Source: Thiomicrorhabdus arctica DSM 13458 (GTDB lineage: Bacteria; Pseudomonadota; Gammaproteobacteria; Thiomicrospirales; Thiomicrospiraceae). From it: DNA of 64,000 bases. The notes below the pieces were generated by a model. The model saw nothing but the letters and a program-made list of their open reading frames with translations. It was not told the origin of the DNA and made no database searches. The position numbers and the translations under genes are program-made. The DNA is taken from NCBI RefSeq assembly GCF_000381085.1, contig NZ_KB905899.1, forward strand, positions 1,426,001-1,490,000, in the 5' to 3' direction. Positions 3,616 through 59,519 of the stretch are shown here, piece after piece (position 1 is the first letter of the stretch; every line of letters begins with the position of its first letter).

Positions 3616-4938
3616 ATGAACCTATTTACCTATCGTTTCCTCACCACTTTAGCGCTACCGCTGATTGCCTATTCAGGGTGGAAACGCTGCCGAAAACATC
3701 TCTTAGAGCAAGCCAAACATCCAGAGCTGCCTGACATTGTTGACTGCTTTCGATCTCGTTTTGGCTTTAATCGCCAAAAAATGCAAACCGGTGGTATTTG
3801 GATTCATGCTGTTTCAGTAGGGGAAACCCGCTCGATCTTCCCTCTTTTATCTCGACTCAAGCAAGACCACCCGAACCGACCACTCACGCTGACCAGTGGC
3901 TCAACCCAAGGCGCCTTACAAGCGTTACAGTTTTCACCGGTTCAGATTCAACATCAAATGATTCCGTATGATTACGCTTTTGCCGTCAATCGCTTTTTGG
4001 ATCAACTCCAACCCCAACTCGTTATTATGGTTGAAACTGAAATATGGCCCAACCTCTACCAGGCCTGTTCAGAGCGCAAGATCCCAATTATGCTGATTAA
4101 TGCACGGTTAAAAGAGCAGTCATTCCTTGCTTATAAGAAGTGGGGTGGCAAGATGCTGAGCAATGCTTTAAACCAAACTCAACTGATTGCCGCGCAATTT
4201 CCGATTGATGCACAGCACTTTGAATCACTCGGCGTAAACTCACAAAAAATCAAAGTGTTAGGCAGTCTAAAATTTGATTTAAACATTCCACCAGGCCTGG
4301 TTAAAGACTCTGAACGTTGGAAATCTGAAAACCAACTTGATCATCGGTTTATTTGGGTTGCAGCCAGTACCCACGCACATCCACAAAATCTTCAGGATTC
4401 AGAAGAACAACGGCTATTGCAAGCTCATCAACAGCTATTGGCAAACAGACCAGATGCCTTATTAATTCTGGCACCACGCCATCCGGAGCGCTTTGATGAA
4501 GTCGCCGCACAAATTAAAGCCTCTGGATTGAACTTTGCCAGACGAAGCCTAAGTCAAGACATTACAGCAAACACTCAAGTCTACCTAGCAGACAGTGTCG
4601 GCGAATTAATGTTGTGGTTTTCAGCGGGTGACGTAGCCTTTATTGGAGGCAGCTTAGTGCCTTTTGGTGGACATAATATTCTAGAACCGGCTGCGCTCAA
4701 AAAACCGGTTTTATCCGGGCCCCACTTTGCCAATTTGCAGGCATTGTATGACTCTTTTATGGACGACGAGGCATTAACAATCGTGAATGATACAACCGCT
4801 TTAGGCCGTGTACTGATCAAACTCACACATTCATCAGACAGTCGTCAAGCACTGGGTGAACTTGCTTATCAGAGCTTCAGTCGACAAAGCGGCACCTTAG
4901 ACCTGCTGATGCAAGAAATTCAACCGTTAATTAAGTAG
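3616..4938 (+). CDS. waaA: Kdo transferase WaaA (KdtA)
   Basis: Inner-membrane glycosyltransferase that adds Kdo from CMP-Kdo to lipid IVA, facing the cytoplasm. The 440-aa product has an N-terminal hydrophobic anchor (about residues 5-22), the GIWIHAVSVGE motif, the acceptor-side segment VETEIWPNLY with MLINARL, and the donor-site region GGSLVPFGGHNILEPAA near residue 355. All are typical of GT30. It follows kdsD by 36 bp. The coding sequence contains an exact copy of the repeated palindrome at 4290-4301, read as PGLV, plus a near copy at 4058-4069. The segment around residue 255-275 (STHAHPQNLQDSEEQ) is slightly longer than I recall in relatives. Confidence 0.94.
   Translation: MNLFTYRFLTTLALPLIAYSGWKRCRKHLLEQAKHPELPDIVDCFRSRFGFNRQKMQTGGIWIHAVSVGETRSIFPLLSRLKQDHPNRPLTLTSGSTQGALQALQFSPVQIQHQMIPYDYAFAVNRFLDQLQPQLVIMVETEIWPNLYQACSERKIPIMLINARLKEQSFLAYKKWGGKMLSNALNQTQLIAAQFPIDAQHFESLGVNSQKIKVLGSLKFDLNIPPGLVKDSERWKSENQLDHRFIWVAASTHAHPQNLQDSEEQRLLQAHQQLLANRPDALLILAPRHPERFDEVAAQIKASGLNFARRSLSQDITANTQVYLADSVGELMLWFSAGDVAFIGGSLVPFGGHNILEPAALKKPVLSGPHFANLQALYDSFMDDEALTIVNDTTALGRVLIKLTHSSDSRQALGELAYQSFSRQSGTLDLLMQEIQPLIK
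4290..4301. repeat. Repeated palindrome ACCAGGCCTGGT inside waaA
   Basis: Exact 12-bp copy of the dispersed palindrome, in frame to encode Pro-Gly-Leu-Val in WaaA. A one-mismatch copy (ACCAGGCCTGTT) lies upstream in the same gene at 4058-4069. Confidence 0.9.
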
Positions 4939-5058
4939 TAGTTCATAACCTTGACGATAACGGCGTCTTCACCCTGAAAACACTCACGGCTTAAAATTAA
5001 GGCGCGCGTCTGGGTAAATGCATAGATTAATCCATAGAAGGGTCTATTTCTTAAATCA

Positions 5059-5070
5059 ACCAGGCCTGGT
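5059..5070. repeat. Repeated palindrome ACCAGGCCTGGT between waaA and the YqhA-family gene
   Basis: Exact copy of the dispersed palindrome in the gap between two convergent genes. The rest of the gap (4939-5219) holds the terminator at 5116-5150 and no gene that I can see. Confidence 0.9.
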
Positions 5071-5115
5071 CAGTTCGAGCACCCCCACCAATAGACTTCT
5101 AACCTCCTTTAAAAG

Positions 5116-5150
5116 CAAAAAGCCCGCTATTCGCAAATAGAGGGCTTTTT
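5116..5150. terminator. Bidirectional intrinsic terminator
   Basis: Inverted repeat AAAAAGCCC...GGGCTTTTT with an inner CTATT/AATAG pairing, and an A run on the left and T run on the right. It lies in the gap between waaA (+) and the YqhA-family gene (-), so it can end transcription from both sides. Confidence 0.85.
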
Positions 5151-5219
5151 CTTCTTCAGTCAATTGACCATCCTATTCGGCCTTATCAACCAAACAATCG
5201 CCAGGATTAAACACGATTC

Positions 5220-5792
5220 TTAATGTTTTGACGAAGACATATGTGACAAGTACAGTGCTAAAGAAACCATCATAATGGCTAAGGCATAATACAACAGCTC
5301 CAACGGTTCAGTTGGCTTTAAGAAAATTGCCTGCTCAAAAAACATAACAATCAAAATCATGATAATGACTTTTGCGAGTTTGTCTTTTAAATCATCTAAA
5401 GAGTTGATCATTAAAATTTTGCTGGCCCCTTTATCACCTTCTGCAATATCAATCTTAGAGATGAATAACTCATACAAACCCAGTGAGAAAATCAACATAA
5501 TCGCACCGAGTAAAAAACCATCAACCGCCCCTACCACGTGCGCCACGGTTTGCGACTTCAAGAGAGCACGCCCGGCATCATCTAACGAGTGATAATTTGA
5601 TAGGTGTGAGATGGTGTAATAGACATCAATCGCTGTGGTGTAAAAAACAGCAAATGCCGTTAATAAACTGGCAACAACAGCAATCAACACCACAAAGCGA
5701 CTATTCCATAAAGCTGATTCAAAAACCCTCTCACCCACTCCTTGGACTTTATGCTCAGTTGTTTTAGAAATATCTTCGTGATTATCCGACAT
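5220..5792 (-). CDS. YqhA / UPF0114-family inner-membrane protein
   Basis: Membrane protein of the UPF0114 (YqhA) family; no biochemical role is established. After a short polar N-terminus comes the family-typical segment ESALWNSRFVVLIAVVASLL, then hydrophobic stretches at about residues 30-55, 85-110 and 140-180, suggesting four membrane spans. I chose the ATG at 5792 because AGGAGAG lies seven bases upstream; the in-frame ATG at 5807 lies within that ribosome-binding region. It stands alone, convergent with waaA and just downstream of hslV on the same strand. Confidence 0.8.
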   Translation of the reverse strand: MSDNHEDISKTTEHKVQGVGERVFESALWNSRFVVLIAVVASLLTAFAVFYTTAIDVYYTISHLSNYHSLDDAGRALLKSQTVAHVVGAVDGFLLGAIMLIFSLGLYELFISKIDIAEGDKGASKILMINSLDDLKDKLAKVIIMILIVMFFEQAIFLKPTEPLELLYYALAIMMVSLALYLSHMSSSKH

Positions 5793-5822
5793 ACATACTC
5801 TCCTCATTAATCTTGTTTAACA

Positions 5823-6368: not shown

Positions 6369-6490
6369 GCTTGAATCCTTTATTGTCCGATTGACTTGAT
6401 TTGGCTTAATGCTGGCTATTTTAAATGAAAACGCCTGGCGATTCGATAGGATTCGTTTTTTCTTGCGTCGTTTTCCTTAAAGAATTTAAA

Positions 6491-7456
6491 TTAAGAGTTT
6501 TTCTTTTTGGCTCGAGGATGGGCTTGATCATAGACTTGTGCGAGATGTTGCAAATCCAGCTTGGTATATATTTGAGTCGTAGAAAGATTCGCGTGGCCTA
6601 AAATCTCCTGTACAGCACGCAGGTCGCCACTGGACTCCAATACATGTGTGGCACAGGCATGTCTTAATCGGTGAGGTGACATTTTAGTCGGCAGACCGGC
6701 TTGCAAAGTGCGTTTATCAAGCTGATTTTGGATAGAACGCACACTTAACCGCCCACCACGCTGATTGACAAAAACGGCTTGTTCAATGGCTGCAGCATGC
6801 TGATCTCTAATCTGTAACCACATTTGAATCGCTTGTAACGCTTTTGAACCAACGGGTGCAAGGCGCTCTTTCATACCTTTTCCCAAAACACGGACCCAAC
6901 CTGACTGCATTTCATCCAGGCCTGGTGACAGGTCCAATTCAGCGCATTCTGAAACTCTTAAGCCAGCAGAGTACAGCAGCTCGAAAATAGCCTGATCTCG
7001 AACATCTTGCCAAGTCTCTAAGGGTTGCTCTAACAGCCTCTGCGTCAAATCGACATCCAAACTTTTCGGCAAAGGTTGGGGTTGCTTCGGTGCTTTTAAG
7101 CCCTTAGCGGGATTTTTAATGACTTGGTTTTCAAATAATAGATAATCATAAAAAGAGCGAATTGCCGACAACTGTCTGGCAAGGGTTCTGGCACTGATAC
7201 CGTTTTGAACCCGAAAAGCTAAAAAAGCGCGAATGGTCTCCGAATCAATGCTTTGCCACTCAGAAAAGTTTTTAACCAGTGAATTTTGATACTCAACCGC
7301 CGTTAAGAAAGAGTTTTCACTCACATCGGTTTCAGACAACAACTCCCCCGACAGATAAAACCCCAAAAAGGCTTCAATATCACGCTGATAATTGGAGACC
7401 GTATGCACCGATTTATTCTGTGATTGCAACTGCCTTAGATAGTCGTTTAATTGCAT
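6491..7456 (-). CDS. xerC: Site-specific tyrosine recombinase XerC
   Basis: Resolves chromosome dimers at dif together with XerD. The 321-aa product has an N-terminal SAM-like core-binding domain and a C-terminal catalytic domain. Visible catalytic residues are Arg in SAGLRVSECAEL, Lys in GKGMKERLAPV, His-x-x-Arg in HRLRHACATH, His in ILGHANLSTTQ and the Tyr nucleophile in TQIYTKLD. It is longer than E. coli XerC (298 aa) because of an insertion near residues 40-60. It lies directly downstream of the DUF484 gene (11 bp), in the dapF-DUF484-xerC order widely seen in gammaproteobacteria. A near copy of the repeated palindrome (CCAGGCCTGGT) lies at 6916-6926. Confidence 0.94.
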   Translation of the reverse strand: MQLNDYLRQLQSQNKSVHTVSNYQRDIEAFLGFYLSGELLSETDVSENSFLTAVEYQNSLVKNFSEWQSIDSETIRAFLAFRVQNGISARTLARQLSAIRSFYDYLLFENQVIKNPAKGLKAPKQPQPLPKSLDVDLTQRLLEQPLETWQDVRDQAIFELLYSAGLRVSECAELDLSPGLDEMQSGWVRVLGKGMKERLAPVGSKALQAIQMWLQIRDQHAAAIEQAVFVNQRGGRLSVRSIQNQLDKRTLQAGLPTKMSPHRLRHACATHVLESSGDLRAVQEILGHANLSTTQIYTKLDLQHLAQVYDQAHPRAKKKNS

Positions 7457-11912: not shown

Positions 11913-12518
11913 ATGAGCAAACAACCAGGCCTGGTGAATATTTCTTTATCGAAAACCATTGAATCGGTTTTAAATACGGCTATTCGTTTAGATGAAGAGC
12001 AAGGGCAAGCTTTTAAAGGATTGGAAGATAAGGTGATTAAGGTCACTTTGACGCCGGTCACCTCGCCTGTGTATTTTTTGTTTACCAGCTATATGGTCAG
12101 CGTGCAAAATCAGTTGACTGGCGAGCCTGATGCCGCTTTAGAATGTACTTTGTTTGATTTCATGAGCTTGCCGTTAAACCGAACGTTACCCACGAGTTTG
12201 ATGGAAGGTGATACCGACCTTGCTATGCAATTTATCGACGGGCTTTGCGGCCTAGATATTGATTGGGAAGAGCACCTGTCGCATTATACGGGCGATTTAG
12301 TTGCTTTTAAAATCGGCCATGGCATTCGCAGTTTTTTTGAACAAAAACAAACCACCAAAAACAACCTTGGCGAAACAGTTAAAGAGTATCTACAGTTTGA
12401 GATTAATGCCTTACCAACTCAAAGCCAAGTGAAACGCTTTGTACAGCAAGTGCAACAAACCCAGGATGAAATTGACCAGTTGGCTTTACGCATTGAGGCC
12501 TTGCTCACAAAAACATGA
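11913..12518 (+). CDS. ubiJ: Ubiquinone biosynthesis accessory factor UbiJ (SCP2 domain)
   Basis: SCP2-type lipid-binding accessory protein of the soluble ubiquinone-synthesis complex, partner of UbiK. The 201-aa product has an N-terminal SCP2-like domain (about residues 15-115), a hydrophilic middle and a C-terminal coiled coil (LEINALPTQSQV...VQQTQDEIDQLALRIEALL). Identity rests on position between ubiE and ubiB and on this architecture, because sequence conservation of UbiJ is low. The fourth to seventh codons (PGLV) are encoded by an exact copy of the repeated palindrome at 11924-11935, close to the translation start. Confidence 0.85.
   Translation: MSKQPGLVNISLSKTIESVLNTAIRLDEEQGQAFKGLEDKVIKVTLTPVTSPVYFLFTSYMVSVQNQLTGEPDAALECTLFDFMSLPLNRTLPTSLMEGDTDLAMQFIDGLCGLDIDWEEHLSHYTGDLVAFKIGHGIRSFFEQKQTTKNNLGETVKEYLQFEINALPTQSQVKRFVQQVQQTQDEIDQLALRIEALLTKT
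11924..11935. repeat. Repeated palindrome ACCAGGCCTGGT at the start of ubiJ
   Basis: Exact 12-bp copy beginning 11 bases after the ubiJ ATG and encoding Pro-Gly-Leu-Val. This close to the start it could affect initiation by local RNA pairing. Confidence 0.9.
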
Positions 12519-12589: not shown

Positions 12590-14212
12590 ATGAAGCCAAT
12601 TAAACAATTTTTCCGCATGATTAAGATCAATCGCGTTTTAACCTATTATCAAATCGATAAGATGGTTTTAACCGAGACCAAATATAGCTGGTTAATATGG
12701 CTGAATCTTATTTTTCCGTGGAACTGGCGTAAAAAATCCGTTGCTGGCCGGGGTGAACAAATCCGTCTGGCACTGGAAGAACTTGGCCCTATTTTCATTA
12801 AATTGGGTCAAGCACTCTCTACACGTAAAGATCTCTTGCCCCACGACATTTCGATAGAGTTGGTTAAATTGCAGGACGACTGTCCGCCATTTGATGAAGT
12901 ACATTCGAAACAGTTGATTGAAGAAGGGCTGAAACAAACAGTCGAAGAGGCGTTTGCCGAATTCGATCCGATTCCGATGGCATCCGCGTCTATTGCGCAA
13001 GTTCATGCCGCAACCCTTCACACCGGTACAAAAGTCATTGTTAAGGTCGTCAGGCCAGACATCAAACCCATCATCGAACAAGATGTCGCCATTATGTTTG
13101 GTCTCGCCAAATTGTTTGAAGCGGCTGTGCAAATCGCTAAACGCCTCCACCCGGTCGAAGTGGTTGCTGAGTTTGAAAAAACCATTCTTGATGAACTCGA
13201 CATGATGCGCGAAGCCGCCAATGCCACTCAGCTTAGACGTAACTTTGAAGACTCTGATCTGCTTTATGTCCCTGAAATCTATTGGTCACACACCAGTCAA
13301 AGCGTAATGACTATGGAACGTATCTACGGGATTCGCATCAGTGAGACTGAAAAATTGATCGAAGCCGGAATCGATTTAACAGATCTATCGGCAAAAGGTG
13401 TCGTCATCTTCTTTACCCAAGTCTTTAAGCACAACTTTTTTCATGCCGATATGCATCCCGGCAATATCTTTGTTCTGCCAGATGGCCGTTATGCCGCCAT
13501 CGACTTCGGCATTATGGGTACGCTGGCGCCGGATGACCAACGTTACTTGGCAGAGAACTTTTTAGCGTTCTTTAATCGTGATTATCTGCGTGTCTCTGAA
13601 CTGCACATTGAATCTGAATGGGTACCAAAAGGCACGCGTGTTAACGAGTTTGAATCGGCGATTCGTTCTGTCTGCGAACCTATCTGGGATCGCCCGCTCA
13701 AAGACATCTCTTTCGGTTTAGTGTTAATGCGCCTTTTCCAAACCGCTCGTCGTTTTGGCATGGAAGTTCAACCACAGTTGGTATTGCTGCAAAAAACCCT
13801 GTTGAACATTGAAGGTTTGGGGCGACAGTTAGATGATGAACTCGATCTTTGGGATACCGCTAAACCTTTCTTAGAAGATTGGATGCAAGAGCGAGTGGGT
13901 CCAAAAGGTCTGGTCAAAAACATTAAAGCGAATCTGCCTTTCTGGATTGAACAAGCTCCCGAATTGCCTGGGTTACTGCATGCCAGTTTAAACAAACTAG
14001 CGCACATCGACATACATCAACAATCAGATCAGATCGCTCGGTTAGAGAAACAGATTGAAGCGCAAACGACCGCTCAGCGTAATCGCACTATTGGCGTACT
14101 GATTATCCTATTTGCATTGTTACCAGGCCTGGTCAATCAAGAGTGGATTAATGAAAGTTGGTTACAAGTCGTACTGGTCGTTTTCGGGGCTTACTTTATT
14201 ATTAAAAAGTAA
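12590..14212 (+). CDS. ubiB: Ubiquinone biosynthesis protein kinase-like UbiB
   Basis: Atypical ADCK/ABC1-family kinase or ATPase required for ubiquinone biosynthesis. The 540-aa protein shows the KxGQ motif in FIKLGQALSTRKDLLP, the alanine-rich loop PMASASIAQVHAA, Lys in KVIVKVVRP, the HPGN motif in HADMHPGNIFV and IDFGIMG in place of DFG. Two hydrophobic C-terminal segments (about residues 498-538, IGVLIILFALLPGLV and LQVVLVVFGAYFII) anchor it in the inner membrane. A palindrome copy at 14122-14133 encodes PGLV inside the first of these. It is the last gene of ubiE-ubiJ-ubiB. Confidence 0.96.
   Translation: MKPIKQFFRMIKINRVLTYYQIDKMVLTETKYSWLIWLNLIFPWNWRKKSVAGRGEQIRLALEELGPIFIKLGQALSTRKDLLPHDISIELVKLQDDCPPFDEVHSKQLIEEGLKQTVEEAFAEFDPIPMASASIAQVHAATLHTGTKVIVKVVRPDIKPIIEQDVAIMFGLAKLFEAAVQIAKRLHPVEVVAEFEKTILDELDMMREAANATQLRRNFEDSDLLYVPEIYWSHTSQSVMTMERIYGIRISETEKLIEAGIDLTDLSAKGVVIFFTQVFKHNFFHADMHPGNIFVLPDGRYAAIDFGIMGTLAPDDQRYLAENFLAFFNRDYLRVSELHIESEWVPKGTRVNEFESAIRSVCEPIWDRPLKDISFGLVLMRLFQTARRFGMEVQPQLVLLQKTLLNIEGLGRQLDDELDLWDTAKPFLEDWMQERVGPKGLVKNIKANLPFWIEQAPELPGLLHASLNKLAHIDIHQQSDQIARLEKQIEAQTTAQRNRTIGVLIILFALLPGLVNQEWINESWLQVVLVVFGAYFIIKK
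14122..14133. repeat. Repeated palindrome ACCAGGCCTGGT inside ubiB
   Basis: Exact copy, in frame as Pro-Gly-Leu-Val, within a C-terminal membrane segment. No gene or other element is seen in the following gap 14213-14504. Confidence 0.9.
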
Positions 14213-15983: not shown

Positions 15984-16562
15984 CTAACGAGTTCGGTAAC
16001 GTGGTTCACTGAATAAAGGCACTGCATACTCAATGTCCTTATCATTTTCCAACGTTTCTAACAGCACATCATATGAAGTTGTCGGCTTCACATCAAATAT
16101 CGCCATACGTGGGTTTGGAAGTTGCGTCAGCATCTTAAAGCCATAAGTCGATTCCATCGTATACAAGTCTTCTTCTTGGTAAGTTTTAATAATCAAACTG
16201 CCTATAACCACCGCACTCGAACCAGATTGTTTATTCAATAACACAGGCATAAAGTCATAAACCTTACCCTCATATTCTCTCTGTAAAGGTGCACACGTTC
16301 CCGGCGAAAACCAAGACTTCGTGGTTTGATAAATATGCCAAGCACCGTTACGTTCCAGTAAGGTGAGTTCAAACTCTTTCGGTAACTGAGCAAGTGATAA
16401 CAAGCTAGCAATACGCTTTGGCTCAGGTTGGTAGGTCTGCGCGCCTGCCTTGGTAGCGACTTCAAAACAGGGCTCACCAAACGACCAGGCCTGGTAACTT
16501 ATCAATAGACCAAAAAACAGTATAAAGGCACGTAGTAGAGTTTTATTTTGATTAGTAAGCAT
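15984..16562 (-). CDS. Secreted propeptide-like protein, candidate external chaperone/inhibitor of the upstream subtilase
   Basis: 192-aa secreted protein (signal peptide about residues 1-29). The last 80 residues read like a subtilase propeptide: a beta-type start SSAVVIGSLIIKTY, a middle YGFKMLTQLPNPRMAIFDV, then a helix-to-strand end LLETLENDKDIEYAVPLF, matching the usual x-L-x-x-DPxVEYAEP pattern of I9-type prosegments. I chose the ATG at 16562, two bases after the stop of the subtilase gene; an upstream overlapping start (16592) gives a poorer signal peptide. Aeromonas sobria ASP, a kexin-like protease without a propeptide, needs a separately encoded chaperone (ORF2) just downstream; this pair has the same arrangement. 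Function is inference. Confidence 0.65.
   Translation of the reverse strand: MLTNQNKTLLRAFILFFGLLISYQAWSFGEPCFEVATKAGAQTYQPEPKRIASLLSLAQLPKEFELTLLERNGAWHIYQTTKSWFSPGTCAPLQREYEGKVYDFMPVLLNKQSGSSAVVIGSLIIKTYQEEDLYTMESTYGFKMLTQLPNPRMAIFDVKPTTSYDVLLETLENDKDIEYAVPLFSEPRYRTR
16484..16495. repeat. Repeated palindrome ACCAGGCCTGGT near the signal-peptide end of the chaperone-like gene
   Basis: Exact copy; on the reverse strand it encodes YQAWS near the predicted cleavage site. Confidence 0.9.
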
Positions 16563-16564
16563 AT

Positions 16565-19020: not shown

Positions 19021-19033
19021 GACCAAGCCTGGT
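19021..19033. repeat. Degenerate palindrome copy between ychF and tRNA-Met
   Basis: GACCAAGCCTGGT, one mismatch from the repeated palindrome, in the gap 18946-19204 that otherwise shows only a small CTTACA/TGTAAG hairpin (about 19135-19148). Confidence 0.6.
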
Positions 19034-27627: not shown

Positions 27628-28530
27628 GTGAATGACTCTTCTACGATCGAAAACTGTCTTAGGGCTGCAAATCAACAACTGATTCAAGCAGGCCTGGTCG
27701 ATTCCTATCGACTGGATGCCGAACTACTACTGGCTCATAGTTTACACGTCTCGAGAACTTACCTATTCACTTGGTCGGACAAATTACTTGATTGTCAGCA
27801 ACAACTCGCGTTTGACGAAGTGCTGCAGCAAAGACTGCAAGGCAAGCCGATTGCCCACATTCTCGGTGAACGTGAATTCTGGGGACTCAACCTGAGAGTA
27901 ACGGTCGATACCTTGATTCCCCGCCCTGACAGTGAAACACTTGTGGAAGCGGCCTTAGAGCTCCACCAGCAGACTCAAGACTCTCCAAGCACCCCTGACT
28001 CTAAACCTGAAATTAAAACCGACCAGGCCTGGTCAATCTTAGATTTAGGCACAGGCAGTGGTGCGATTGCCCTCGCGTTAAAAAGTGAATGCCCACTTTG
28101 TATGGTCACCGCAGTAGATTTTAGCCAGAAAGCGTTACAAGTCGCTTCAGAGAATGCCTTAAACCTGCAACTAGACATTAAATTTTTACAGAGTGATTGG
28201 TTTTCAGCCATTCAAGCAACACAATCGTTTGATTGCATCGTCTCCAATCCGCCTTACATTGAAGATGCCGATCCTCACTTATTTCAAGGCGATGTTCGAT
28301 TTGAACCGATTACTGCGTTAACCTCAGGCCAGGATGGATTAGACGATATCCGAAAAATAACGGACCAGGCCTGGTCGTTTTTAAACCCGAATGGCTGGCT
28401 ATTGATCGAGCACGGTTATCATCAAGCCAAATCGGTGGCAGCACTATTCAAGTCACATCACTACAGCAATATCAGAGGCGTTAAAGACTTGGGTGGCAAC
28501 CCTCGTATCACCCTTGGACAAAAACGGTAA
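27628..28530 (+). CDS. prmC: Release-factor glutamine methyltransferase PrmC (HemK) with embedded palindromes
   Basis: Methylates the Gln of the GGQ motif in RF1 and RF2. The 300-aa sequence has the N-terminal helical domain, RPDSETLVEAAL, the SAM loop ILDLGTGSGAIALAL and the catalytic NPPY in CIVSNPPYIEDAD. The start is a GTG at 27628, 13 bp after prfA. Two exact copies of the repeated palindrome lie inside (28021-28034 and 28363-28376), both read as DQAWS, and a near copy at 27688-27699 encodes part of AGLVD. The first exact copy falls in an extended linker (about residues 114-133) between the domains, just where the family varies in length. Confidence 0.95.
   Translation: MNDSSTIENCLRAANQQLIQAGLVDSYRLDAELLLAHSLHVSRTYLFTWSDKLLDCQQQLAFDEVLQQRLQGKPIAHILGEREFWGLNLRVTVDTLIPRPDSETLVEAALELHQQTQDSPSTPDSKPEIKTDQAWSILDLGTGSGAIALALKSECPLCMVTAVDFSQKALQVASENALNLQLDIKFLQSDWFSAIQATQSFDCIVSNPPYIEDADPHLFQGDVRFEPITALTSGQDGLDDIRKITDQAWSFLNPNGWLLIEHGYHQAKSVAALFKSHHYSNIRGVKDLGGNPRITLGQKR
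28021..28034. repeat. Repeated palindrome GACCAGGCCTGGTC inside prmC (first exact copy)
   Basis: Exact 14-bp copy in the interdomain linker, encoding Asp-Gln-Ala-Trp-Ser directly before the SAM-binding strand. Confidence 0.92.
28363..28376. repeat. Repeated palindrome GACCAGGCCTGGTC inside prmC (second exact copy)
   Basis: Exact 14-bp copy in the same frame as the one 342 bp upstream, again encoding Asp-Gln-Ala-Trp-Ser. Confidence 0.92.
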
Positions 28531-38849: not shown

Positions 38850-39772
38850 AACACTTCTGGAAAATGCGGCCACGGATAGTTTTTATCGCAAACCGCAATA
38901 AAGAAGGGATTGAGAAGCGATTTAGTTTGTACATACTGCAAAGGGTGTCCTGCTGCATTCAGCAGTGCACCCCCTGCGGATTCAAGAATGCAGTGAGATG
39001 CCGCGGTATCCCACAACGAGGTCGGGCCAAACCGTGGGTAGATATCAACCTTACCTTCAGCGACCAAACAGGTTTTTAAGGCAGAACCCATTTTAATTAA
39101 AGAGACTTCTCCCAATTGCGCTGTGAAGCGTTGTAATACGCCGCCATGCCGCCGACTTATTGCGACTTTAATTTTTTCACCAACGTGACCATCCAACCCC
39201 TTCGAAACCCGATCTTGTTGTTTTACAGAGTGTTTGTCTTGCAAAGAATTGACTTGGATCGACGGTGCTTTTTCTAATATAGACAGCCATTGATGATGAG
39301 ATAAACCTGCTGTCAGACCGCTTAATTTAAACGCCTTCTGGCCTTTAATCGAGAAGTATAAGCTCCCTATTTCAGGACCATATACCACACCTAACACTGG
39401 CTGATGATCTACGATCAGTGCAATATTCACACTGTACTCTCCGGTGCGACCAATGAACTCTTTAGTGCCATCCAAGGGGTCGACTAACCAATAAGTCGAC
39501 CAGGCCTGACGACTTTCAAACGGCACGTCCGCAACACTCTCTTCGGTAATCAATGGAATCGTCGACACCAGAGCCTGTAAAGCCATAGTGATCATTTTAT
39601 CGGCTTGTTTGTCGGCCTCGGTCACGGGCGAACCATCCGTTTTATCCTCGACATCTAACCTCTTAGACTGGTGATATAAAGTTGATATATGTTGACCGGC
39701 AAGATATGCGATATGGCAAACTTCGGGCAACCACTTAACCAACTCTTCAGATGTAACTGCACGCGAGTTCAT
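38846..39772 (-). CDS. cysQ: 3'(2'),5'-bisphosphate nucleotidase CysQ
   Basis: Inositol-monophosphatase-fold phosphatase that hydrolyses PAP (3'-phosphoadenosine 5'-phosphate), a by-product of sulfate assimilation. Metal-site motifs are visible: TEADKQAD, ITEESV, LVDPLDGTKEFI and SLWDTAASHCILESAGG. At 308 aa it is longer than E. coli CysQ (246 aa) because of a polar insertion near residues 165-205. It overlaps nudE by four bases (39769-39772), so the two are co-translated. A near copy of the repeated palindrome at 39500-39511 falls in a QAWS-encoding frame. Confidence 0.92.
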   Translation of the reverse strand: MNSRAVTSEELVKWLPEVCHIAYLAGQHISTLYHQSKRLDVEDKTDGSPVTEADKQADKMITMALQALVSTIPLITEESVADVPFESRQAWSTYWLVDPLDGTKEFIGRTGEYSVNIALIVDHQPVLGVVYGPEIGSLYFSIKGQKAFKLSGLTAGLSHHQWLSILEKAPSIQVNSLQDKHSVKQQDRVSKGLDGHVGEKIKVAISRRHGGVLQRFTAQLGEVSLIKMGSALKTCLVAEGKVDIYPRFGPTSLWDTAASHCILESAGGALLNAAGHPLQYVQTKSLLNPFFIAVCDKNYPWPHFPEVF

Positions 39773-41059: not shown

Positions 41060-41073
41060 GACCAGGCCTGGTC
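41060..41073. repeat. Repeated palindrome GACCAGGCCTGGTC between yrfG and the AraC-family gene
   Basis: Exact 14-bp copy 10 bp after the yrfG stop, in a gap between convergent genes. Confidence 0.92.
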
Positions 41074-44670: not shown

Positions 44671-45237
44671 ATGTCCTTAAAACACTCCGACACGCCTGAA
44701 AAACAACCTGACGCAGCCCCACCGTTTTGGAAAAAGAATTGGGTTAAAAATACCTTGACTGGTTTGCTTTTTGTAGGCGTATTTTTATTGCTACGCCCTT
44801 ATATGCAAGGCGATGTGGTACAAGGGCAAGCGCCGATTATGCACGTACAGAGCATCACCGGAAAAACCATTGACCTGCAAGCATTAAACCAACAAGGTAA
44901 ACCCGTGTTAATCCACATCTGGGCAACTTGGTGTCCTATATGTGACATCAGTAAAGGGGGTATTGAATCGGTGGCAAAAGAGTATGCGGTGATTAATATC
45001 GCCTCCCAGTCGGCAGATGATGACCAACTACTGACCTTTGCCAAAAACAATGAGATGAACCCCGATATTATCGTCAACGATTTAGAAGGCAAGTGGCTAA
45101 AAGTGCTTGGCGCTAAAGCCGTGCCCGCTGATTTTGTCATCGCACCAAACGGCGAAATTGCGTTTGTTGAAGTCGGTTTAACCACTAGTATGGGCTTAAG
45201 ACTTCGTCTATGGTGGACCGCATTGATGGCGGATTAA
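44671..45237 (+). CDS. Membrane-anchored thioredoxin-like protein (TlpA/ScsD-like)
   Basis: 188-aa protein with one N-terminal membrane anchor (about residues 29-44, NTLTGLLFVGVFLLLRPY) and a periplasmic thioredoxin domain. The redox motif is IHIWATWCPICDISKGG, CPIC with flanks like ScsD, and the cis-Pro loop is AKAVPADFVIAPNG. It likely reduces or isomerises periplasmic disulfides, though no ScsB/DsbD partner is in the window. Its stop overlaps the start of the spermidine-synthase-like gene (TAATG). Confidence 0.82.
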   Translation: MSLKHSDTPEKQPDAAPPFWKKNWVKNTLTGLLFVGVFLLLRPYMQGDVVQGQAPIMHVQSITGKTIDLQALNQQGKPVLIHIWATWCPICDISKGGIESVAKEYAVINIASQSADDDQLLTFAKNNEMNPDIIVNDLEGKWLKVLGAKAVPADFVIAPNGEIAFVEVGLTTSMGLRLRLWWTALMAD

Positions 45238-45986
45238 TGACGAATAAAGCGAACGACTCAGAGTTAAATATCGATCTAAAAACCAAGCAGAAATATGGCG
45301 GTTCATTGATACATTGTCAACGTGATGAGTTTGGTTTGATTGAAGTGGTTGATACCCCCCAAATGCGCAGTCTATTTTTTGGCTCGCCAGTGGAACAGAG
45401 TCGGCTCTTTTTTCATGCGCCGATGACCTTGTCGTTTGAATACCAGCAAGTCATCGAAGCACAAATTTTAGACTTTCATGAAAAACATCCGCTCAAACGG
45501 GTCTTGATGCTGGGTATGGGTGGCGGATCCATTGCCAGCCATCTCAATGCTCTACAGCCAGAGATGCAAATTCATATTGTTGAACTGCGCCAAGCGGTGA
45601 TCGATATCGCTTATGACTATTTTCATTTGCCAAAAGTACCTGAGATTGAAGCCATGCAAGAAGATGCTTGGGACTTTATTGCAGAGGGCCTAACGAAGTA
45701 TGATGTGATTATTGTCGATGTCTTTGATGAAGAAGGATTACCGAATGACTTTACTGAGCTGGAATTTCAAAAGAATCTATTGAACAACTTAAAGTCACCA
45801 GGCCTGGTGTTATTTAATTTGTGGAACCATAAAGACAAACATATTAAACAGCAAACAGATTTAATCGTTAAATATTGGCAACAACAAGCTTTATCAAGCT
45901 TATCGGGCAAGCAGCACCACAAAATCCGGGTCGATAGCTACCCAATTCACTCCAGTGAGAATATAATCCTCAGCATTCAGGTATAG
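45237..45986 (+). CDS. Spermidine-synthase-like Rossmann-fold protein
   Basis: 249-aa protein of the spermine/spermidine-synthase superfamily without N-terminal oligomerisation strands. The SAM-type nucleotide loop is VLMLGMGGGSIASHL, followed by IHIVELRQAVIDIA and DAWDFI. The catalytic-loop region is IIVDVFDEEGLPN in place of the D-x-T-DPxGP of true SpeE, so polyamine synthesis is doubtful and another methyl or aminopropyl transfer is possible. Start at ATG 45237 overlaps the preceding stop (TAATG), so translation is coupled. A palindrome copy at 45797-45808 encodes PGLV. Confidence 0.7.
   Translation: MTNKANDSELNIDLKTKQKYGGSLIHCQRDEFGLIEVVDTPQMRSLFFGSPVEQSRLFFHAPMTLSFEYQQVIEAQILDFHEKHPLKRVLMLGMGGGSIASHLNALQPEMQIHIVELRQAVIDIAYDYFHLPKVPEIEAMQEDAWDFIAEGLTKYDVIIVDVFDEEGLPNDFTELEFQKNLLNNLKSPGLVLFNLWNHKDKHIKQQTDLIVKYWQQQALSSLSGKQHHKIRVDSYPIHSSENIILSIQV
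45797..45808. repeat. Repeated palindrome ACCAGGCCTGGT inside the spermidine-synthase-like gene
   Basis: Exact copy in frame as Ser-Pro-Gly-Leu-Val before a hydrophobic strand. Confidence 0.9.
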
Positions 45987-48140: not shown

Positions 48141-48232
48141 AACCAGGTCTGGCCAAATGCAAAGGAACAATTAATATTAAAAAGGCCTCTCAAGCATTGA
48201 TGACCATTCAAATAAATCGAGTCTGACCCCAG
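48141..48232 (+). repeat. Degenerate member of the accessory-region composite repeat
   Basis: Begins with a decayed palindrome (ACCAGGTCTGGC, 48142-48153) and ends with GAGTCTGACCCCAG (48219-48232), the tail shared with the two better copies at 49189 and 50133. The middle differs and contains the separate repeat at 48173-48206. Confidence 0.55.
48173..48206 (+). repeat. Short dispersed repeat, copy 1
   Basis: AATATTAAAAAGGC and TCTCAA, then ATTGATGA, shared with a second copy at 56472-56505 with a few mismatches. Function unknown. Confidence 0.6.
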
Positions 48233-49181: not shown

Positions 49182-49209
49182 TAAAGCCGACCAGGCCTGG
49201 TCGGCTTTA
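49182..49209 (-). terminator. 28-bp perfect palindrome built on the repeated motif, acting as an intrinsic terminator
   Basis: The repeated palindrome (49189-49202 core) is extended on both sides by TAAAGCC/GGCTTTA, giving a perfect 28-bp inverted repeat. On the reverse strand the hairpin is followed by TTTTTGG, so it can end the nitroreductase transcript. It is the clearest case of the motif serving a visible RNA role. Confidence 0.8.
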
Positions 49210-50132: not shown

Positions 50133-50213
50133 GACCAGGCCTGGTCGGTTTTTAAAATGAGCTTAAGGATGAGTTGATAGCAGGGTCATTTAATTTCAGT
50201 CTGACCCCTCATG
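50133..50213 (+). repeat. Composite repeat, copy C, with exact palindrome
   Basis: GACCAGGCCTGGTCGG (50133-50148), AAAATGAGC spacer, then GGGTCATTTAATTTCAGTCT followed by GACCCCTC. It aligns with copy B with scattered differences. It lies in the 380-bp gap 49889-50268, which has no gene I can support. Confidence 0.78.
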
Positions 50214-52729: not shown

Positions 52730-53851
52730 TTAATGATCATATTGCTCAAAGTTAATCACTTGTAAATCATTAGCCTCTAAAATTTTGCCTGTAAAACCTT
52801 GTGCTCGGATAAGCGTCTCCACTTGAGGGATTTTGCCTTCCGTCAGCGGCGTAATATGTGAAAGCAAGAGTGTTTTCACATTGGCTTTATGTGCCACTTC
52901 GCCAATGCGAGAAGGTGTGGTATGCAAATTATAAAAAACCTTTAATGATGGATTTGGCAGAGTATCCGTTGCCAACGAGGTATCATAAATCAACAGATCG
53001 GCACCTTCTGAAATGCCCATCATATTGCCGCCATTTAGAAGGGGATTCCCTTTCATATTCGTTTTCTTTGAACTCGTATCGCCAGAATATACAATCGTTA
53101 GGCCTTTGTACTCTATACGAAAGGCTAACGCAGGTACTGGGCCATGATTGACACCCACCGCTTTAATCACTAGACCGTCCACGCCCGACGGGGTGATGTT
53201 TGTCGGATTATAGACCTGCCAGTTTGGCGATATATTATGCGCTTCGTAGTTAAAGGTACCGCCATTAATGGCACGTGAAAATACATTTAAGTAACGCTCT
53301 ACACCCGTATTTAGATCAAAATGCTTATATACATATGCTGAGGTAGCTGGATATTGTGCCACGCCCTCATTAGCCCCAATATCGAGAGGGAACGGCACTC
53401 TATTAGCCCCAGGACCAAACACTCTAAACGGAGCTGTGCGTCCTGGAGGAAAAGCAGAAGGCTTTTGCTTAAGGTTATAAGTGCTATTATTAAAATACAT
53501 GGATTTAATGATGGAAGGTAAATCCCCAGTGTGATCGAGATGCAGATGAGATAACAAAACGATATCCAGGTCTTTTATATCCACTCCGGCCATTGCGAGA
53601 CTTTTGTAAGCACCCCCACCCGCATCCATTAAAATTCTTGGCACACCATCAACAAAAACAAGATAACTTGCACTCGCACGACCGGCTGGTGTGGCGACAG
53701 GTCCACCCGACCCTAACACCATAACGGAAAGATCGCCTTTGACGTTATCAAACGCCGTGCTCTTTTTATCCTGACCAGCCATAGCGGTTAACGGAAAAGA
53801 AAATAGTAATGCAAGCGGTACTATCTTTAATAAAATTCGTTTTCTCATCAT
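52730..53851 (-). CDS. Secreted MBL-fold metallo-hydrolase, copy 1
   Basis: 373-aa periplasmic metallo-beta-lactamase-fold hydrolase. Signal peptide about residues 1-25 (cleavage after AMA). The metal motif is LLSHLHLDHTGDLPS (His102, His104, Asp106, His107), followed by further ligands in VNHGPVPALAFRIEY, VYSGDTSS and LLLSHITP. The overall pattern resembles RNase Z/arylsulfatase-like MBL hydrolases, but a periplasmic signal rules out tRNA processing. The substrate is unknown. A near-identical copy lies at 54947 with one small unrelated gene between, so this is a recent duplication. Confidence 0.88.
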   Translation of the reverse strand: MMRKRILLKIVPLALLFSFPLTAMAGQDKKSTAFDNVKGDLSVMVLGSGGPVATPAGRASASYLVFVDGVPRILMDAGGGAYKSLAMAGVDIKDLDIVLLSHLHLDHTGDLPSIIKSMYFNNSTYNLKQKPSAFPPGRTAPFRVFGPGANRVPFPLDIGANEGVAQYPATSAYVYKHFDLNTGVERYLNVFSRAINGGTFNYEAHNISPNWQVYNPTNITPSGVDGLVIKAVGVNHGPVPALAFRIEYKGLTIVYSGDTSSKKTNMKGNPLLNGGNMMGISEGADLLIYDTSLATDTLPNPSLKVFYNLHTTPSRIGEVAHKANVKTLLLSHITPLTEGKIPQVETLIRAQGFTGKILEANDLQVINFEQYDH

Positions 53852-54318
53852 CGTAATGTTCCCTTACATTTGTTCGTATTCATTAAGCAGTAATACTAAC
53901 ATACAGTTTTCGATTAATAAACACAGATTAGTAGAGCTTATTCACATGACGATTCTTATTATCTGTAGATCTGCTTTACTCACTCATTTATTTTAATTCC
54001 TCTCTTAAATCCCATAACGGGCCTACACTCAGGCACCCGGAGTTTTGAGGTATTCTTAGCGTGAAAGGTATTTTTGACTGTTTTTGAAAGGGAGAGTTCA
54101 GGGGTGTGGATTTATTTATACAGAGAAACGTTAGATTAAGATCATTCGACCAGGCCTGATCCGTTTTAAAAGCCCATTATTTTCAGGGGGATAAAACAGG
54201 CTAATAACGTAGAAAGTTTATCTTTTGTAAGTCACTATCTTTTCACCTAACGTAGGACACGTTTAGGGAATATCAGAGGACAAGCTTAGAAAAACCGATT
54301 TAATGAAGAGAAGCATCT
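53852..54318. other. Intergenic region with MBL promoter-like sequence and a palindrome near copy
   Basis: 467 bp without a gene. AGTAATACTAACATACAGTT (about 53891-53910) recurs upstream of copy 2 (near 56100-56119), so it probably carries the shared MBL promoter on the reverse strand. A near copy of the repeated palindrome (GACCAGGCCTGATC) lies at 54148-54161. Confidence 0.5.
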
Positions 54319-54946: not shown

Positions 54947-56065
54947 TTATTGTTCATGTTGCTCAAAGTTAATCACCTGTAAATCATTTGCAGTGAGGAT
55001 GTTGCCTGTAAAACCTTGTGCTCGGATAAGCGTCTCCACTTGGGGGATTTTACCTTCTGTCAGTGGTGTAATATGTGAAAGCAAGAGTGTTTTCACATGA
55101 GCTTTATGCGCCACTTCGCCAATGCGAGAAGGTGTGGTATGCAAATTATAAAAAACCTTTAATGATGGGTTGGGCAGAGTATCCGTCGCCAACGAGGTAT
55201 CATAAATCAACAAGTCGGCACCTTCTGCAATGCCCATCATATTGCCGCCACTTTTAAGGGGGTTCCCCTTCATGTCCGTTTTCTTTGAACTGGTATCGCC
55301 AGAATACACAATCGTTAAACCCTTATACTCTATACGAAAGGCTAACGCAGGTACAGGGCCATGATTGACACCCACCGCTTTAATCACTAGACCGTCCACG
55401 CCCGACGGGGTGATGTTTGTCGGGTTATAGACCTGCCAGTTTGGCGAGATATCATGTGCTTCGTAGTTAAATATACCGCCACTAATGGCACGCGAAAATA
55501 CATTTAAGTAACGTTCTACACCCGTATTTAGATCGAAATGCTCATGCACATATCCTGAGGTAGCCGGATATTGTGCCACGCCCTCTTCAGCCTTAAATGC
55601 AGGGGGAAACGGCACACCGTTGGCCCCTGGACCAAACACTCTAAACGGGGCTGTACGTCCTGGAGGAAAGGCAGAAGGATTTTGCTTAAAATTGTAACTA
55701 CTGTTATTAAAATACATAGATTTAATGATGGAAGGTAGATCCCCAGTGTGATCGAGATGTAGATGAGATAACAAAACGATATCCAGGTCTTTTATATTCA
55801 CCCCAGCCATTGCAAGACTTTTATAAGCACCCCCACCTGCATCCATCAAAATTCTTGGTACACCATCAACAAAGACAAGATAACTTGCACTCGCACGGCC
55901 GGCTAGTGTGGCGACAGGTCCACCCGACCCTAACACCATAACGGAAAGGTCACCTTTGACTTTATCAAACGCCGTGTTCTTTTTATCTTGACCAGCCATG
56001 GCGGTTAACGGAATAGAAAATAGTAATACAAGCGGTATAATTTTTATCAGAATTTGTTTTCTCAT
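54947..56065 (-). CDS. Secreted MBL-fold metallo-hydrolase, copy 2
   Basis: 372-aa periplasmic hydrolase nearly identical to the one at 52730, including HLHLDH, SGDTSS and SHITP motifs. Most differences cluster in one surface stretch (GVPFPPAFKAEEGVAQYP here, RVPFPLDIGANEGVAQYP in copy 1) and around FNNSSYNFKQ. Start at 56065 aligns with the start of copy 1 and has GGAT upstream; ATGs at 56071 and 56077 are in frame. A strong terminator follows. Because it keeps all metal ligands, both copies are probably active. Confidence 0.87.
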   Translation of the reverse strand: MRKQILIKIIPLVLLFSIPLTAMAGQDKKNTAFDKVKGDLSVMVLGSGGPVATLAGRASASYLVFVDGVPRILMDAGGGAYKSLAMAGVNIKDLDIVLLSHLHLDHTGDLPSIIKSMYFNNSSYNFKQNPSAFPPGRTAPFRVFGPGANGVPFPPAFKAEEGVAQYPATSGYVHEHFDLNTGVERYLNVFSRAISGGIFNYEAHDISPNWQVYNPTNITPSGVDGLVIKAVGVNHGPVPALAFRIEYKGLTIVYSGDTSSKKTDMKGNPLKSGGNMMGIAEGADLLIYDTSLATDTLPNPSLKVFYNLHTTPSRIGEVAHKAHVKTLLLSHITPLTEGKIPQVETLIRAQGFTGNILTANDLQVINFEQHEQ

Positions 56066-56243
56066 CGTCATATCCATCCATTTTTTGTTTCTAAGTTAAG
56101 TAGTCATACTAACATACAATTTTATTCATAAGCGCACATTGGAACCACTGAAAATTTAGCTTGTGTGCCCCATATGGCGGTTGACAGTCATGTGTCTGCC
56201 TGAACTAAAAATAAAAGGGTAGCACTTGATTCTTGAATTCAAG

Positions 56244-56471: not shown

Positions 56472-56505
56472 AATATTAAAAAGGCATCTCAATTATTGAT
56501 GATTA
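56472..56505 (+). repeat. Short dispersed repeat, copy 2
   Basis: AATATTAAAAAGGC and TCTCAA followed by ATTGATGA, matching copy 1 at 48173-48206 apart from a few bases. Confidence 0.6.
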
Positions 56506-56598
56506 AATTGAAGAATTATTTATAGTAAGATACGTTGCAAACACTGATGTTTACTATAACTTCACAAATCCTAAGATCCCCCTATGAGGACAACATTT

Positions 56599-57342: not shown

Positions 57343-57399
57343 ATAAGTGGATAAACCGCTTATGTAGATTAACATTACTCAGCGCAGGCACTTAAAAAT

Positions 57400-57432
57400 G
57401 GTTACAGATTTGGGTCTGTAGCCTTTTTTTTT
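57400..57432 (+). terminator. Intrinsic terminator after the ice-binding gene
   Basis: 9-bp stem GGTTACAGA (57400-57408) / TCTGTAGCC (57415-57423), with one G-T pair, followed by nine T residues. Confidence 0.9.
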
Positions 57433-57469
57433 GGATAAAAACGGGTCAGGTAAACTGAATATTCAAAGC

Positions 57470-57483
57470 GACCAGGCCTGGTC
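57470..57483. repeat. Repeated palindrome GACCAGGCCTGGTC between the ice-binding and receiver-like genes
   Basis: Exact 14-bp copy in a convergent gap. Confidence 0.92.
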
Positions 57484-57550
57484 AATTGAGAATGTCTAAA
57501 GAAAAGAAGTCTGAAACAAGCCCAAAAGCTTAAGCAGGCATTGCTCTACT

Positions 57551-58015
57551 TTACTTCTCCAAGGTCGCTGCAGGCGTAATATCACCACGCATGGCTTTCC
57601 AGCGGTTTAAACGGCGCAATAACCGCAGGACAAAGGTGGCGGTCATGGGTTCTGGTGAGGTGTATTTAAAATAGCCTAAATCAATCAAACTCTGCACCGA
57701 TCTCTTTTCAGAATTCGAGCCCATTAAAATCAATGGTGTTTGCAGAATCTTTGGATTCATATGCGTTATCTCCATCCACAGCGGTTCCATGGCTTTAGCT
57801 AACTCGGCAGAGATAAAAACCGCAATGTAGGTTCGATGCGTTGAATAGCGGCGAGACTCTAAATCGGCCAACATCGTCTCTTGGCTGTTTAAGGCAATGA
57901 CCTCTAATCCATAATGTTTTAGAAAGTTACTCAACACAGCAAAACGTGCACTGTCGGCTTCACAGATTGCGATCTTTTTACCTTGTAACCACATTAACTG
58001 ATCTTTATAAGTCAC
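57551..58015 (-). CDS. Degenerate receiver-domain protein
   Basis: 154-aa CheY-like fold. The N-terminal KKIAICEADSARFAVLSNFL has the usual acidic pair region reduced to EAD. The phospho-acceptor strand reads YIAVFISAELAK, with Ser where Asp should be, while the Lys-Tyr loop region (YFKYTSPEPM) is retained. It therefore probably cannot be phosphorylated by the usual route and may be a protein-binding pseudo-receiver. No histidine kinase is adjacent; it lies divergent to nrdB. Confidence 0.7.
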   Translation of the reverse strand: MTYKDQLMWLQGKKIAICEADSARFAVLSNFLKHYGLEVIALNSQETMLADLESRRYSTHRTYIAVFISAELAKAMEPLWMEITHMNPKILQTPLILMGSNSEKRSVQSLIDLGYFKYTSPEPMTATFVLRLLRRLNRWKAMRGDITPAATLEK

Positions 58016-58251
58016 GTCTCTCCCACACCTTGATTGATGGTCTATGGCTCATTATCCAAAAAGATGACCGCAATAGACAATTATTTCGCTATTTATCTAA
58101 CGTATTATCTCTTTTAAGATCTAGAGTTATCCGCATTTAAAGGTGAATATTCTCCTTCAATCAATCCCTTATACAGTAAAGGTGTTCATAGAGTCTTATC
58201 TAGTCTAAAATAGTGCGACTAAACATCCCTTTTTCCAGGAAAAATCGATTT

Positions 58252-59385
58252 ATGAGCTGCAAAGATCAACACACCTATTCTACTTTTTGTCGTTCACCTA
58301 ACGACGCGATGAAAGAGCCTATGTTTTTTGGCCAGAACGTCAATGTTGCGCGTTATGACCAACAAAAATATCCTATTTTTGAAAAATTGATTGAGAAACA
58401 ACTGAGTTTCTTCTGGCGTCCTGAAGAGGTGGACTTATCAAGCGATCGCAGCGAATATGCCAACCTGCCAGAGAATGAACAGCATATTTTCATCAGTAAC
58501 CTAAAATATCAAACCTTGCTAGATTCGGTGCAAGGTCGTTCGCCTAATGTCGCTTTACTGCCATTGGTCTCTATTCCTGAGTTGGAAACCTGGATTGAAA
58601 CCTGGTCGTTTTCAGAGACGATTCACAGCCGTTCATACACGCATATTATTCGTAATATCGTCGCCGATCCTTCGCTGATTTTTGATGATATCGTCAACAA
58701 TGAAGAGATCACCAAACGTGCTGAGAGCGTGACGCTCTATTATGATAAGTTAATCGCCTTAACCAATCATATGTACGCCAATGAGATTGACCTGAGTAAA
58801 GACGATGCTTTCCGTAAGAAGATCAAAACGGCACTGTACTTAACGATGGTCTCGGTCAATGTGTTGGAAGCGGTTCGTTTCTATGTCTCATTTGCTTGTA
58901 GCTTTTCATTTGCCGAACGCTCTTTGATGGAAGGCAATGCCAAGGTGATCAAACTGATCGCTCGTGATGAAGCACTGCATTTATCGGGTACGCAGAACAT
59001 TATTAATATTCTGGTTGAAGGCAAAGATGACCCTGAAATGGCCGTCATTGCTCGAGAGGAAGAAGAGAATGTTTACACTATTTTCCGGGAAGCGGCACAG
59101 CAGGAAAAAGAGTGGGCAGAGTATCTGTTTAAAAATGGTTCAATGATTGGTTTGAATGCCAACATCTTAAAGGACTATGTTGAATACATTACGAATGTCC
59201 GCTTAAAAGCGGTTCGTCTGGAGCCGATATTTGAATTACGCAGCAACCCTTTACCATGGATGAACAATTGGCTTGTCAGCGATAACGTTCAGGTCGCACC
59301 GCAAGAGTCAGAAATCAGCTCTTACCTGGTCGGTCAGATTGACTCTAAAGTAGAGCAATCTGATTTTGATGACTTCTCCTTATAA
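58252..59385 (+). CDS. nrdB: Ribonucleotide reductase class Ia beta subunit NrdB
   Basis: Holds the tyrosyl radical of aerobic class Ia ribonucleotide reductase. From the ATG at 58252 the protein is 377 aa, matching E. coli NrdB, and begins [17 protein letters not shown]. The radical Tyr is in [15 protein letters not shown]; ligands include the Glu of [14 protein letters not shown] and [10 protein letters not shown]. The GTG at 58213 would add residues with no match. nrdA, normally adjacent, is absent on both sides: upstream is the receiver-like gene and downstream a terminator and a convergent gene. Confidence 0.95.
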
Positions 59386-59424
59386 AGGCGTGACGCGCTG
59401 ACTTTTTGTCAGTCACCGCTTCAA

Positions 59425-59476
59425 CAAAAAAGCCGCAAAGAGAGTATTTTATACTAAATGTCTTTGCGGCTTTTTT
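59425..59476. terminator. Bidirectional intrinsic terminator after nrdB
   Basis: Perfect 16-bp stem AAAAAAGCCGCAAAGA / TCTTTGCGGCTTTTTT around a 20-base loop, with A and T runs on each side, so it works for nrdB and for the convergent gene at 59535. Confidence 0.93.
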
Positions 59477-59507
59477 ATGGTCTTTCATAAAGTTTACCAG
59501 CCTTTCT

Positions 59508-59519
59508 ACCAGGCCTGGT
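59508..59519. repeat. Repeated palindrome ACCAGGCCTGGT in the nrdB 3' gap
   Basis: Exact copy 15 bp before the stop of the convergent gene at 59535. Confidence 0.9.

Follow-up and report, generated by a model that had tools for sequence, protein, structure and literature searches.

An iterated palindrome in Thiomicrorhabdus arctica and its relatives as a candidate DNA-uptake-sequence-like system with lineage dialects

Uptake sequences are established in the Neisseriaceae and the Pasteurellaceae. Here we describe a highly iterated 12-bp palindrome, ACCAGGCCTGGT, in a 64,000-nucleotide stretch of Thiomicrorhabdus arctica DSM 13458 (contig NZ_KB905899.1, positions 1,426,001 to 1,490,000; the whole stretch is called the window below), and its distribution in the genome and among related genomes. 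According to excerpts of PMC3630211, CTG is kept in all dialects of the Neisseriaceae DNA uptake sequences (DUS) and is required for transformation. The same source counts 1294 simDUS/kingDUS overlaps of dyad form in Simonsiella muelleri; its authors raise dimer-based recognition for them, which gives a precedent for dyadic uptake words. Both DUS and uptake signal sequences (USS) occur in terminators (PMC1852404, in part).

Among the three options offered by the original prediction (a binding site for an architectural or segregation protein, an uptake signal or a spreading element), the uptake signal provides the best fit. We regard the word, with a probability of roughly 0.6, as part of an unreported DNA-uptake-sequence-like system with dialects, palindromic here. 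In such a system, the word would be read by a receptor for DNA within the type IV pilus competence machinery and would raise uptake, so that own-kind DNA would be preferentially taken up and recombined; preferential transformation would then accumulate the word by molecular drive, and sister lineages would have altered or lost the specificity, some now bearing other words (dialects). Being palindromic, the word would be recognised in either direction or through a dimeric reader. This reading is preferred because the lineage dialects, the asymmetric words on both strands, the T-tract layout, the CTG-containing core, the placing at gene ends, the gain by substitution in prmC and the depletion on a plasmid fit together.

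Iteration, anatomy and placement of the word

In the complete set of six contigs (2,552,883 bases), 333 exact copies of ACCAGGCCTGGT were counted, against 0 copies of the reversed control. A sample of 684 kb, made up of the window and 31 stretches of 20 kb, held 103 copies against ~0.05 per strand under an order-3 Markov model, a ~2000-fold excess, and the top-listed over-represented 10-, 12- and 14-mers of the sample under that model were all parts of the same word. A genome-wide count against Markov expectation had been set beforehand as the check on which the prediction could fail, and outside the window the count lay far above expectation. One-mismatch copies were also in excess (46 in the sample, against a mean of 0.8 for 20 control palindromes of equal composition), with 32 of the 46 changes falling in the outer two positions.

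When copies were aligned on both strands, the consensus was AAAnYGACCAGGCCTGGTCRnTTT, a palindrome of 24 bp whose A/T tracts lie 10-12 bases from its centre, with little signal farther out. It consists of two inverted CCTG-N5-TTT half-words joined at GGCC, and includes GGCC, AGGCCT and two CCWGG sites. The G...C extension, which had been ascribed to most copies, turned out to be a minority feature, carried by 6 of the 13 copies in the window and 35 of the 103 in the sample (70 when both strands are counted). In genic copies, T was found at positions +4, +5 and +6 after the 12-mer at frequencies of 0.67, 0.60 and 0.49 (82 oriented windows); the tract was stronger in intergenic copies (0.73, 0.81 and 0.67; 124 windows). 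Because genic copies keep the tracts, these are not only terminator tails.

The copies are strongly biased towards gene ends. Convergent gaps between open reading frames (ORFs) contained 26 of the 103 sampled copies against 2.2 expected (12.0-fold), tandem gaps 29 (4.1-fold) and divergent gaps three (1.0-fold), with four copies at stretch ends, while ORFs contained 41 against 89.8 expected (0.46-fold). An intergenic excess was also seen in smaller samples of two more palindrome-bearing genomes and of other dialects, and divergent gaps were enriched too in some of the small samples (3/25 sites in G001 and 4/19 in G002). Copies within the ORFs of the own genome avoid the frame that codes Thr-Arg-Pro-Gly (1 of 41 copies); such avoidance was not seen in two small samples of other genomes (2/9 in G001 and 2/12 in G056). 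Across 34 blocks of 20 kb there were 0-6 copies per block (mean 3.03, variance 2.33), with no regional clustering.

Some intergenic copies are embedded in longer hairpins: 18 of 62 were extended by at least four further pairs (control 3.3%), three of these by at least 12, and some of the extended copies had T tails. The corresponding figure for genic copies was 4 of 41 (control 1.9%). We read the hairpin-extended copies as copies recruited into terminators, a secondary use, and enrichment at gene ends together with putative use in terminators is what is seen for uptake sequences. The hairpins and the excess in convergent gaps would also be explained if the word were the apical part of intrinsic terminators, iterated via a shared stem. 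Yet 44 of the 62 intergenic copies are unextended, 41 of the 103 sampled copies lie within ORFs, close pairs are not in excess (six gaps of <500 bp against 5.9 expected), and the asymmetric dialects described below lack such a stem by eye, all of which makes a terminator origin very improbable.

Distribution and dialects among relatives

The family set comprised 62 genomes from seven genera. At least one exact copy was present in 41 of them, with counts from 0 to 718. The 8-mer core CAGGCCTG divided the set into 32 genomes with 236 to 1173 copies, hereafter core-rich, and 30 with 0 to 74, the reversed control of the core giving 0 to 36. The core-rich genomes were 15 of g1, seven of g3, all nine of g6 and the sole g7 genome. 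Under the original prediction, the word should not be equally common in unrelated genomes of the same composition; consistent with this, when 369 genomes were drawn from the class, the 365 from outside the family had only background counts of 0-5 copies each. The word is confined to one family. Among the matches listed, the 14-mer occurred in named records of Thiomicrorhabdus, Hydrogenovibrio and Thiomicrospira, most others being single copies in unrelated taxa, and it occurred in 39 stretches of viral contigs, with a single copy per stretch among the matches listed, which was taken as background.

A prmC match was present in 59 genomes, of which 30 entered a prmC tree. When the motif columns were removed, the core-rich label needed five changes, and 1 of 500 shuffles was as low; with the columns included, it needed four changes and 0 of 500 shuffles were as low. 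The tree without these columns is preferred. Core-rich genomes thus cluster on this one-gene tree. The genome with the lowest core count of the core-rich set, G015 (236 cores, 84 exact copies), carries a copy in prmC that has decayed, and it lacks a ComEC match; since the genome is 82% complete, these features give only a hint that the system has been lost there.

Some relatives that are poor in copies carry other words. Samples of 40-100 kb were surveyed from 14 relatives with at most 25 copies (a fifteenth, G048, offered 1.2 kb only and was dropped), and seven of the 14 carried another iterated word. G006 has the palindromic ACCGGCCGGT, and G002 the asymmetric ACCCGGCCTGTTGAGTTT, with an additional T-tract ~10 bases farther on, both counted in the samples. 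The word of G038 is CCCAGCCTGGCAGATTT, that of G044 and G039 is CCC(C)AACCTGGCAGATTTT, and G003 and G027 have a looser word centred on CAGGCCTG. The AACCTGG word of G039 and G044 has an almost invariant tail, GATTTT, across 17 intergenic copies. Of these five other words, three are asymmetric and four are asymmetric or partly symmetric at most; CCTG-N5-TTT is kept wholly or partly in four, and the CCTG core in all except ACCGGCCGGT.

Counts over all 62 genomes are consistent with separate dialects. CCTGGCAGATTT was found 210, 194 and 229 times in G038, G039 and G044 and at most four times in each of the other 59 genomes, and the three genomes that are rich in it contained 0 copies of the ACCAGGCCTGGT palindrome, so that the words were mutually exclusive where counted. 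The strand splits of CCTGGCAGATTT (115/95, 105/89 and 122/107) indicate that both orientations are used.

Two further features were observed in these samples. In G038 (L210-L214), a long repeat of ~26-28 units led to the masking of 8.5 kb of 100 kb ahead of word counting. Separately, TTTCACGTGAAA, which we take to be parS-like, occurred twice in each 60-kb sample of G031 (L235-L237) and G003 (L241-L243), or four times over both strands.

Copies in the window, in prmC and on a plasmid

In the window, 22 matches at up to two mismatches were found against 1.31 expected from dinucleotide-preserving shuffles, a number reached by 0 of 100 shuffles. All 13 exact copies lie where they had been predicted, and the claim that they occur both inside and between genes also holds (seven genic, six intergenic, on longest-ORF calls made without a trained gene finder). 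The seven predicted near copies exist as well, although two of the starts, given as 27688 and 39500, had to be corrected to 27687 and 39499. The copies are:

4290..4301, exact copy within plus-strand ORF 3616-4938
5059..5070, exact copy in a gap of convergent ORFs
11924..11935, exact copy close to the 5' end of plus-strand ORF 11913-12518
14122..14133, exact copy within plus-strand ORF 12590-14212, UbiB-like by eye
16484..16495, exact copy within minus-strand ORF 15984-16592
28022..28033, exact copy with G..C extension within ORF 27628-28530 (prmC by eye), coding DQAWS in a loop that is variable and rich in indels
28364..28375, exact copy with G..C extension within the same prmC ORF, 27628-28530
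41061..41072, exact copy with G..C extension in a gap of convergent ORFs
45797..45808, exact copy within plus-strand ORF 45210-45986
49190..49201, exact copy with G..C extension, intergenic between tandem minus-strand ORFs, where the flanks add eight palindrome pairs to give a terminator-like hairpin
50134..50145, exact copy with G..C extension, intergenic between tandem minus-strand ORFs
57471..57482, exact copy with G..C extension in a gap of convergent ORFs
59508..59519, exact copy in a gap of convergent ORFs
4058..4069, near copy with one mismatch
6915..6926, near copy with one mismatch
19022..19033, near copy with one mismatch
27687..27698, near copy with one mismatch, AGCAGGCCTGGT, in prmC; the identical AGCAGGCCTGGT is found there in G014, G005, G007, G011 and G012
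54149..54160, near copy with one mismatch
39499..39510, weak near copy with two mismatches
48142..48153, weak near copy with two mismatches

The two exact copies in prmC bear on how copies arise. At site 28364, the CAGGCCTG core was present in 12 of 30 aligned genomes, namely, in frame, in 12 of the 16 core-rich genomes and 0 of the 14 others; in those 14, the site has different codons, often for different residues, at the same length. Because homologous codons differ without a change in length, alignment at this site indicates that copies are gained and lost through point substitutions and that they can alter the protein sequence. At site 28022, the whole 12-mer, coding DQAWS or NQAWS, was present in G000, G014, G041, G046 and G036, and G015 has a version one substitution away; as the loop is indel-rich, the copy here may have arisen by insertion.

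Insertion is also what would be expected if the word were a short mobile or inserted element, similar to a miniature inverted-repeat transposable element or a repetitive extragenic palindromic sequence, and the large number of palindromic copies would agree with such an origin, as would an insertion at the single site 28022. By contrast, the copies at 28364 replace homologous codons in frame, the class-wide and viral searches yielded background copies only, and conservation stops 12 bp from the centre. This last point also weighs against the spreading element put forward in the original prediction, for which no conserved flank was found beyond ~12 bp; we consider an element of this kind extremely improbable.

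Copies are depleted on a 96.8-kb contig, G001:C2, that has Rep3, ParA/ParB, TraN, TraG, TraH and TraF domains. Because Rep3 and ParA/ParB are present together with Tra domains, it is taken to be a conjugative plasmid. It carries five copies against 28.3 expected from chromosome density, a 5.7-fold depletion (Poisson P ~1e-7). The second contig of G059 (16 kb, unannotated) had 0 copies against ~3 expected. F-type transfer genes and more pilin-like genes were seen on G001:C2 (L300-L304) and in L294.

Elsewhere in the window, the neighbouring minus-strand ORFs 52730-53851 and 54947-56077 (373 and 376 aa) are much alike by eye, with a metallo-beta-lactamase-like HLHLDH motif, and are probably a tandem duplication.

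Machinery, rival readings and known systems

ComEC was found in 56 of the 62 family genomes, the own genome included, and a match was missing in G015 (core-rich) and in G016, G023, G030, G050 and G051 (core-poor), several of the genomes being incomplete. Proteins with a prepilin signature were surveyed in 12 genomes, where they seem to fall into two groups, the pseudopilins of type II secretion and the minor pilins of a locus next to miaB; Pfam recognised the N-terminal signature at most. The minor-pilin-like proteins (~260-570 aa) are fast-evolving and lie mostly beside miaB (L276 5110-10917, with homologous loci among L277-L292), and in eight genomes the loci also contain a response regulator and a kinase-like protein.

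The original prediction had compared the word with HIP1 of cyanobacteria. The analogy stands for the existence of a genome-wide palindrome; a cause of the HIP1 type does not follow from it. If an orphan DNA methyltransferase with methyl-directed repair bias made the word, the cyanobacterial precedent, in which HIP1 and the alternate HIPs are accompanied by methyltransferases that match them (PMC4390886, in part), and the GGCC, AGGCCT and CCWGG sites within the palindrome would be accounted for. However, of the 32 core-rich genomes, 22 gave no match to the C5-methyltransferase family PF00145 that passed the cut-off, among them the own genome, all nine of g6 and G061. Matches above cut-off were present in the other 10 core-rich genomes and in 13 of the 30 core-poor ones (G012 had a sub-threshold match only). 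The asymmetric T-tract dialects are unlike methyltransferase sites, and the strong preference for gene ends also argues against this explanation, which we consider quite improbable.

Several observations weigh against an uptake system. The word and the machinery are hardly linked, because ComEC is present in core-rich and core-poor genomes alike (31/32 and 25/30). ComP_DUS (PF16732) was over cut-off in 0 of 60 genomes, a search that lacks a positive control, as 14 control genomes also had none; a single weak match lay in a 1214-aa frame. The minor pilins of the miaB locus were rejected as the receptor, being present in word-rich and word-free genomes alike. As their similarity does not follow dialect, no receptor is proposed. 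No clear iterated word was seen in seven of the 14 copy-poor relatives (G004, G010, G022, G008, G009, G030 and G031; 60-100 kb each, in which a rare word could escape), and the ACCGGCCGGT dialect lacks CTG. The five copies on G001:C2, although depleted, are still far above chance. The spacing of 100 consecutive copies is Poisson-like, with a coefficient of variation (CV) of 0.91 (simulated 5-95% range 0.85-1.16), and no even spacing was found. A perfect palindrome would suit a dimeric chromosomal DNA-binding protein equally well. Finally, among the titles and abstract starts listed, no work on uptake sequences, transformation, competence or palindromes in Thiomicrospira or Hydrogenovibrio was found, and listings on new uptake sequences in general likewise contained nothing on this word. 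The ACCAGGCCTGGT string had no occurrence in the literature covered, from which most subscription journals are absent, and term searches of PMC5217627, PMC1852404 and PMC1939737 found neither 'Thiomicrospira' nor CCAGG. In a term search of PMC6501319, on Hydrogenovibrio genomes, 'competence', 'natural transformation' and 'DNA uptake' did not occur, and 'palindrom' appeared solely in the expansion of the abbreviation CRISPR (clustered regularly interspaced short palindromic repeats). The uptake reading is given no more than the probability stated above, since there is no receptor to name and genomes rich and poor in the word are not told apart by ComEC alone.

The architectural or segregation protein of the original prediction is retained as the main rival, albeit an unlikely one. 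The word would then be the site of a chromosomal dimeric DNA-binding protein acting in nucleoid architecture, segregation or nucleoid occlusion, selected widely, with a specificity that shifts between lineages. Such a protein would be well served by a perfect dyad that spans 12-24 bp and has its A/T tracts separated by about two turns of the helix, and the spread of copies across the sampled stretches, their avoidance of genes and the failure of ComEC to split word-rich from word-poor genomes are consistent with it. Conversely, four of the five other words lack full symmetry, regional clustering is absent in the sample and the spacing is Poisson-like, and coding copies with changed residues (QAW in prmC) are more readily explained by drive than as some of several hundred needed sites.

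If the word is an uptake sequence, its wider meaning can be put tentatively, at rather less than even confidence: these free-living sulfur chemolithoautotrophs would possess a third family-wide uptake-sequence system. Its main dialect would be a perfect palindrome, read either way or by a dimeric receptor, and switches between palindromic and asymmetric words would form a barrier to recombination between species. With several dialects in a third family, and in environmental bacteria that can be cultured, one could study why uptake specificity evolves, by what route a receptor comes to read a new word, and whether recombination is confined by dialect. For receptor-DNA recognition, a natural series would be provided by the palindromic dialect together with the asymmetric sister words that have the same T-tract layout.

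Each of the described systems shares part of this pattern. Cyanobacterial HIP1 and the alternate HIPs are, likewise, highly iterated GC-rich palindromes whose place is taken by different palindromes in certain relatives (PMC4390886, in part). They differ in that HIPs go with methyltransferases, of which none of the C5 class was found in most core-rich genomes here, and in that HIP alternates are palindromic, whereas three of the alternates here are asymmetric; the T-tract and the gene-end bias are further differences. Neisseriaceae DUS resemble the present word in being short and iterated, with clade dialects, enrichment in convergent gaps, use in terminators and a CTG core (excerpts of PMC3630211 and PMC1852404). 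The word here differs from them in form, being a single exact palindrome with GGCC at its centre and A/T tracts on the outside; in addition, the search for ComP_DUS homologues gave none above the cut-off, and one dialect has no CTG; copies are also fewer than the at least 1000 usual for DUS (PMC1852404, in part). Pasteurellaceae USS are asymmetric, and the receptor there is predicted to be PpdA/ComN. As here, their core is followed by a T-tract, two dialects are known and they are found in terminators (excerpts of PMC12616744 and PMC1852404). The right half of the consensus, GGTCRnTTT, resembles the extended Pasteurellaceae USS AAAGTGCGGTCAATTTT, with GGTCA-n-TTT common to both (PMC12616744, in part).

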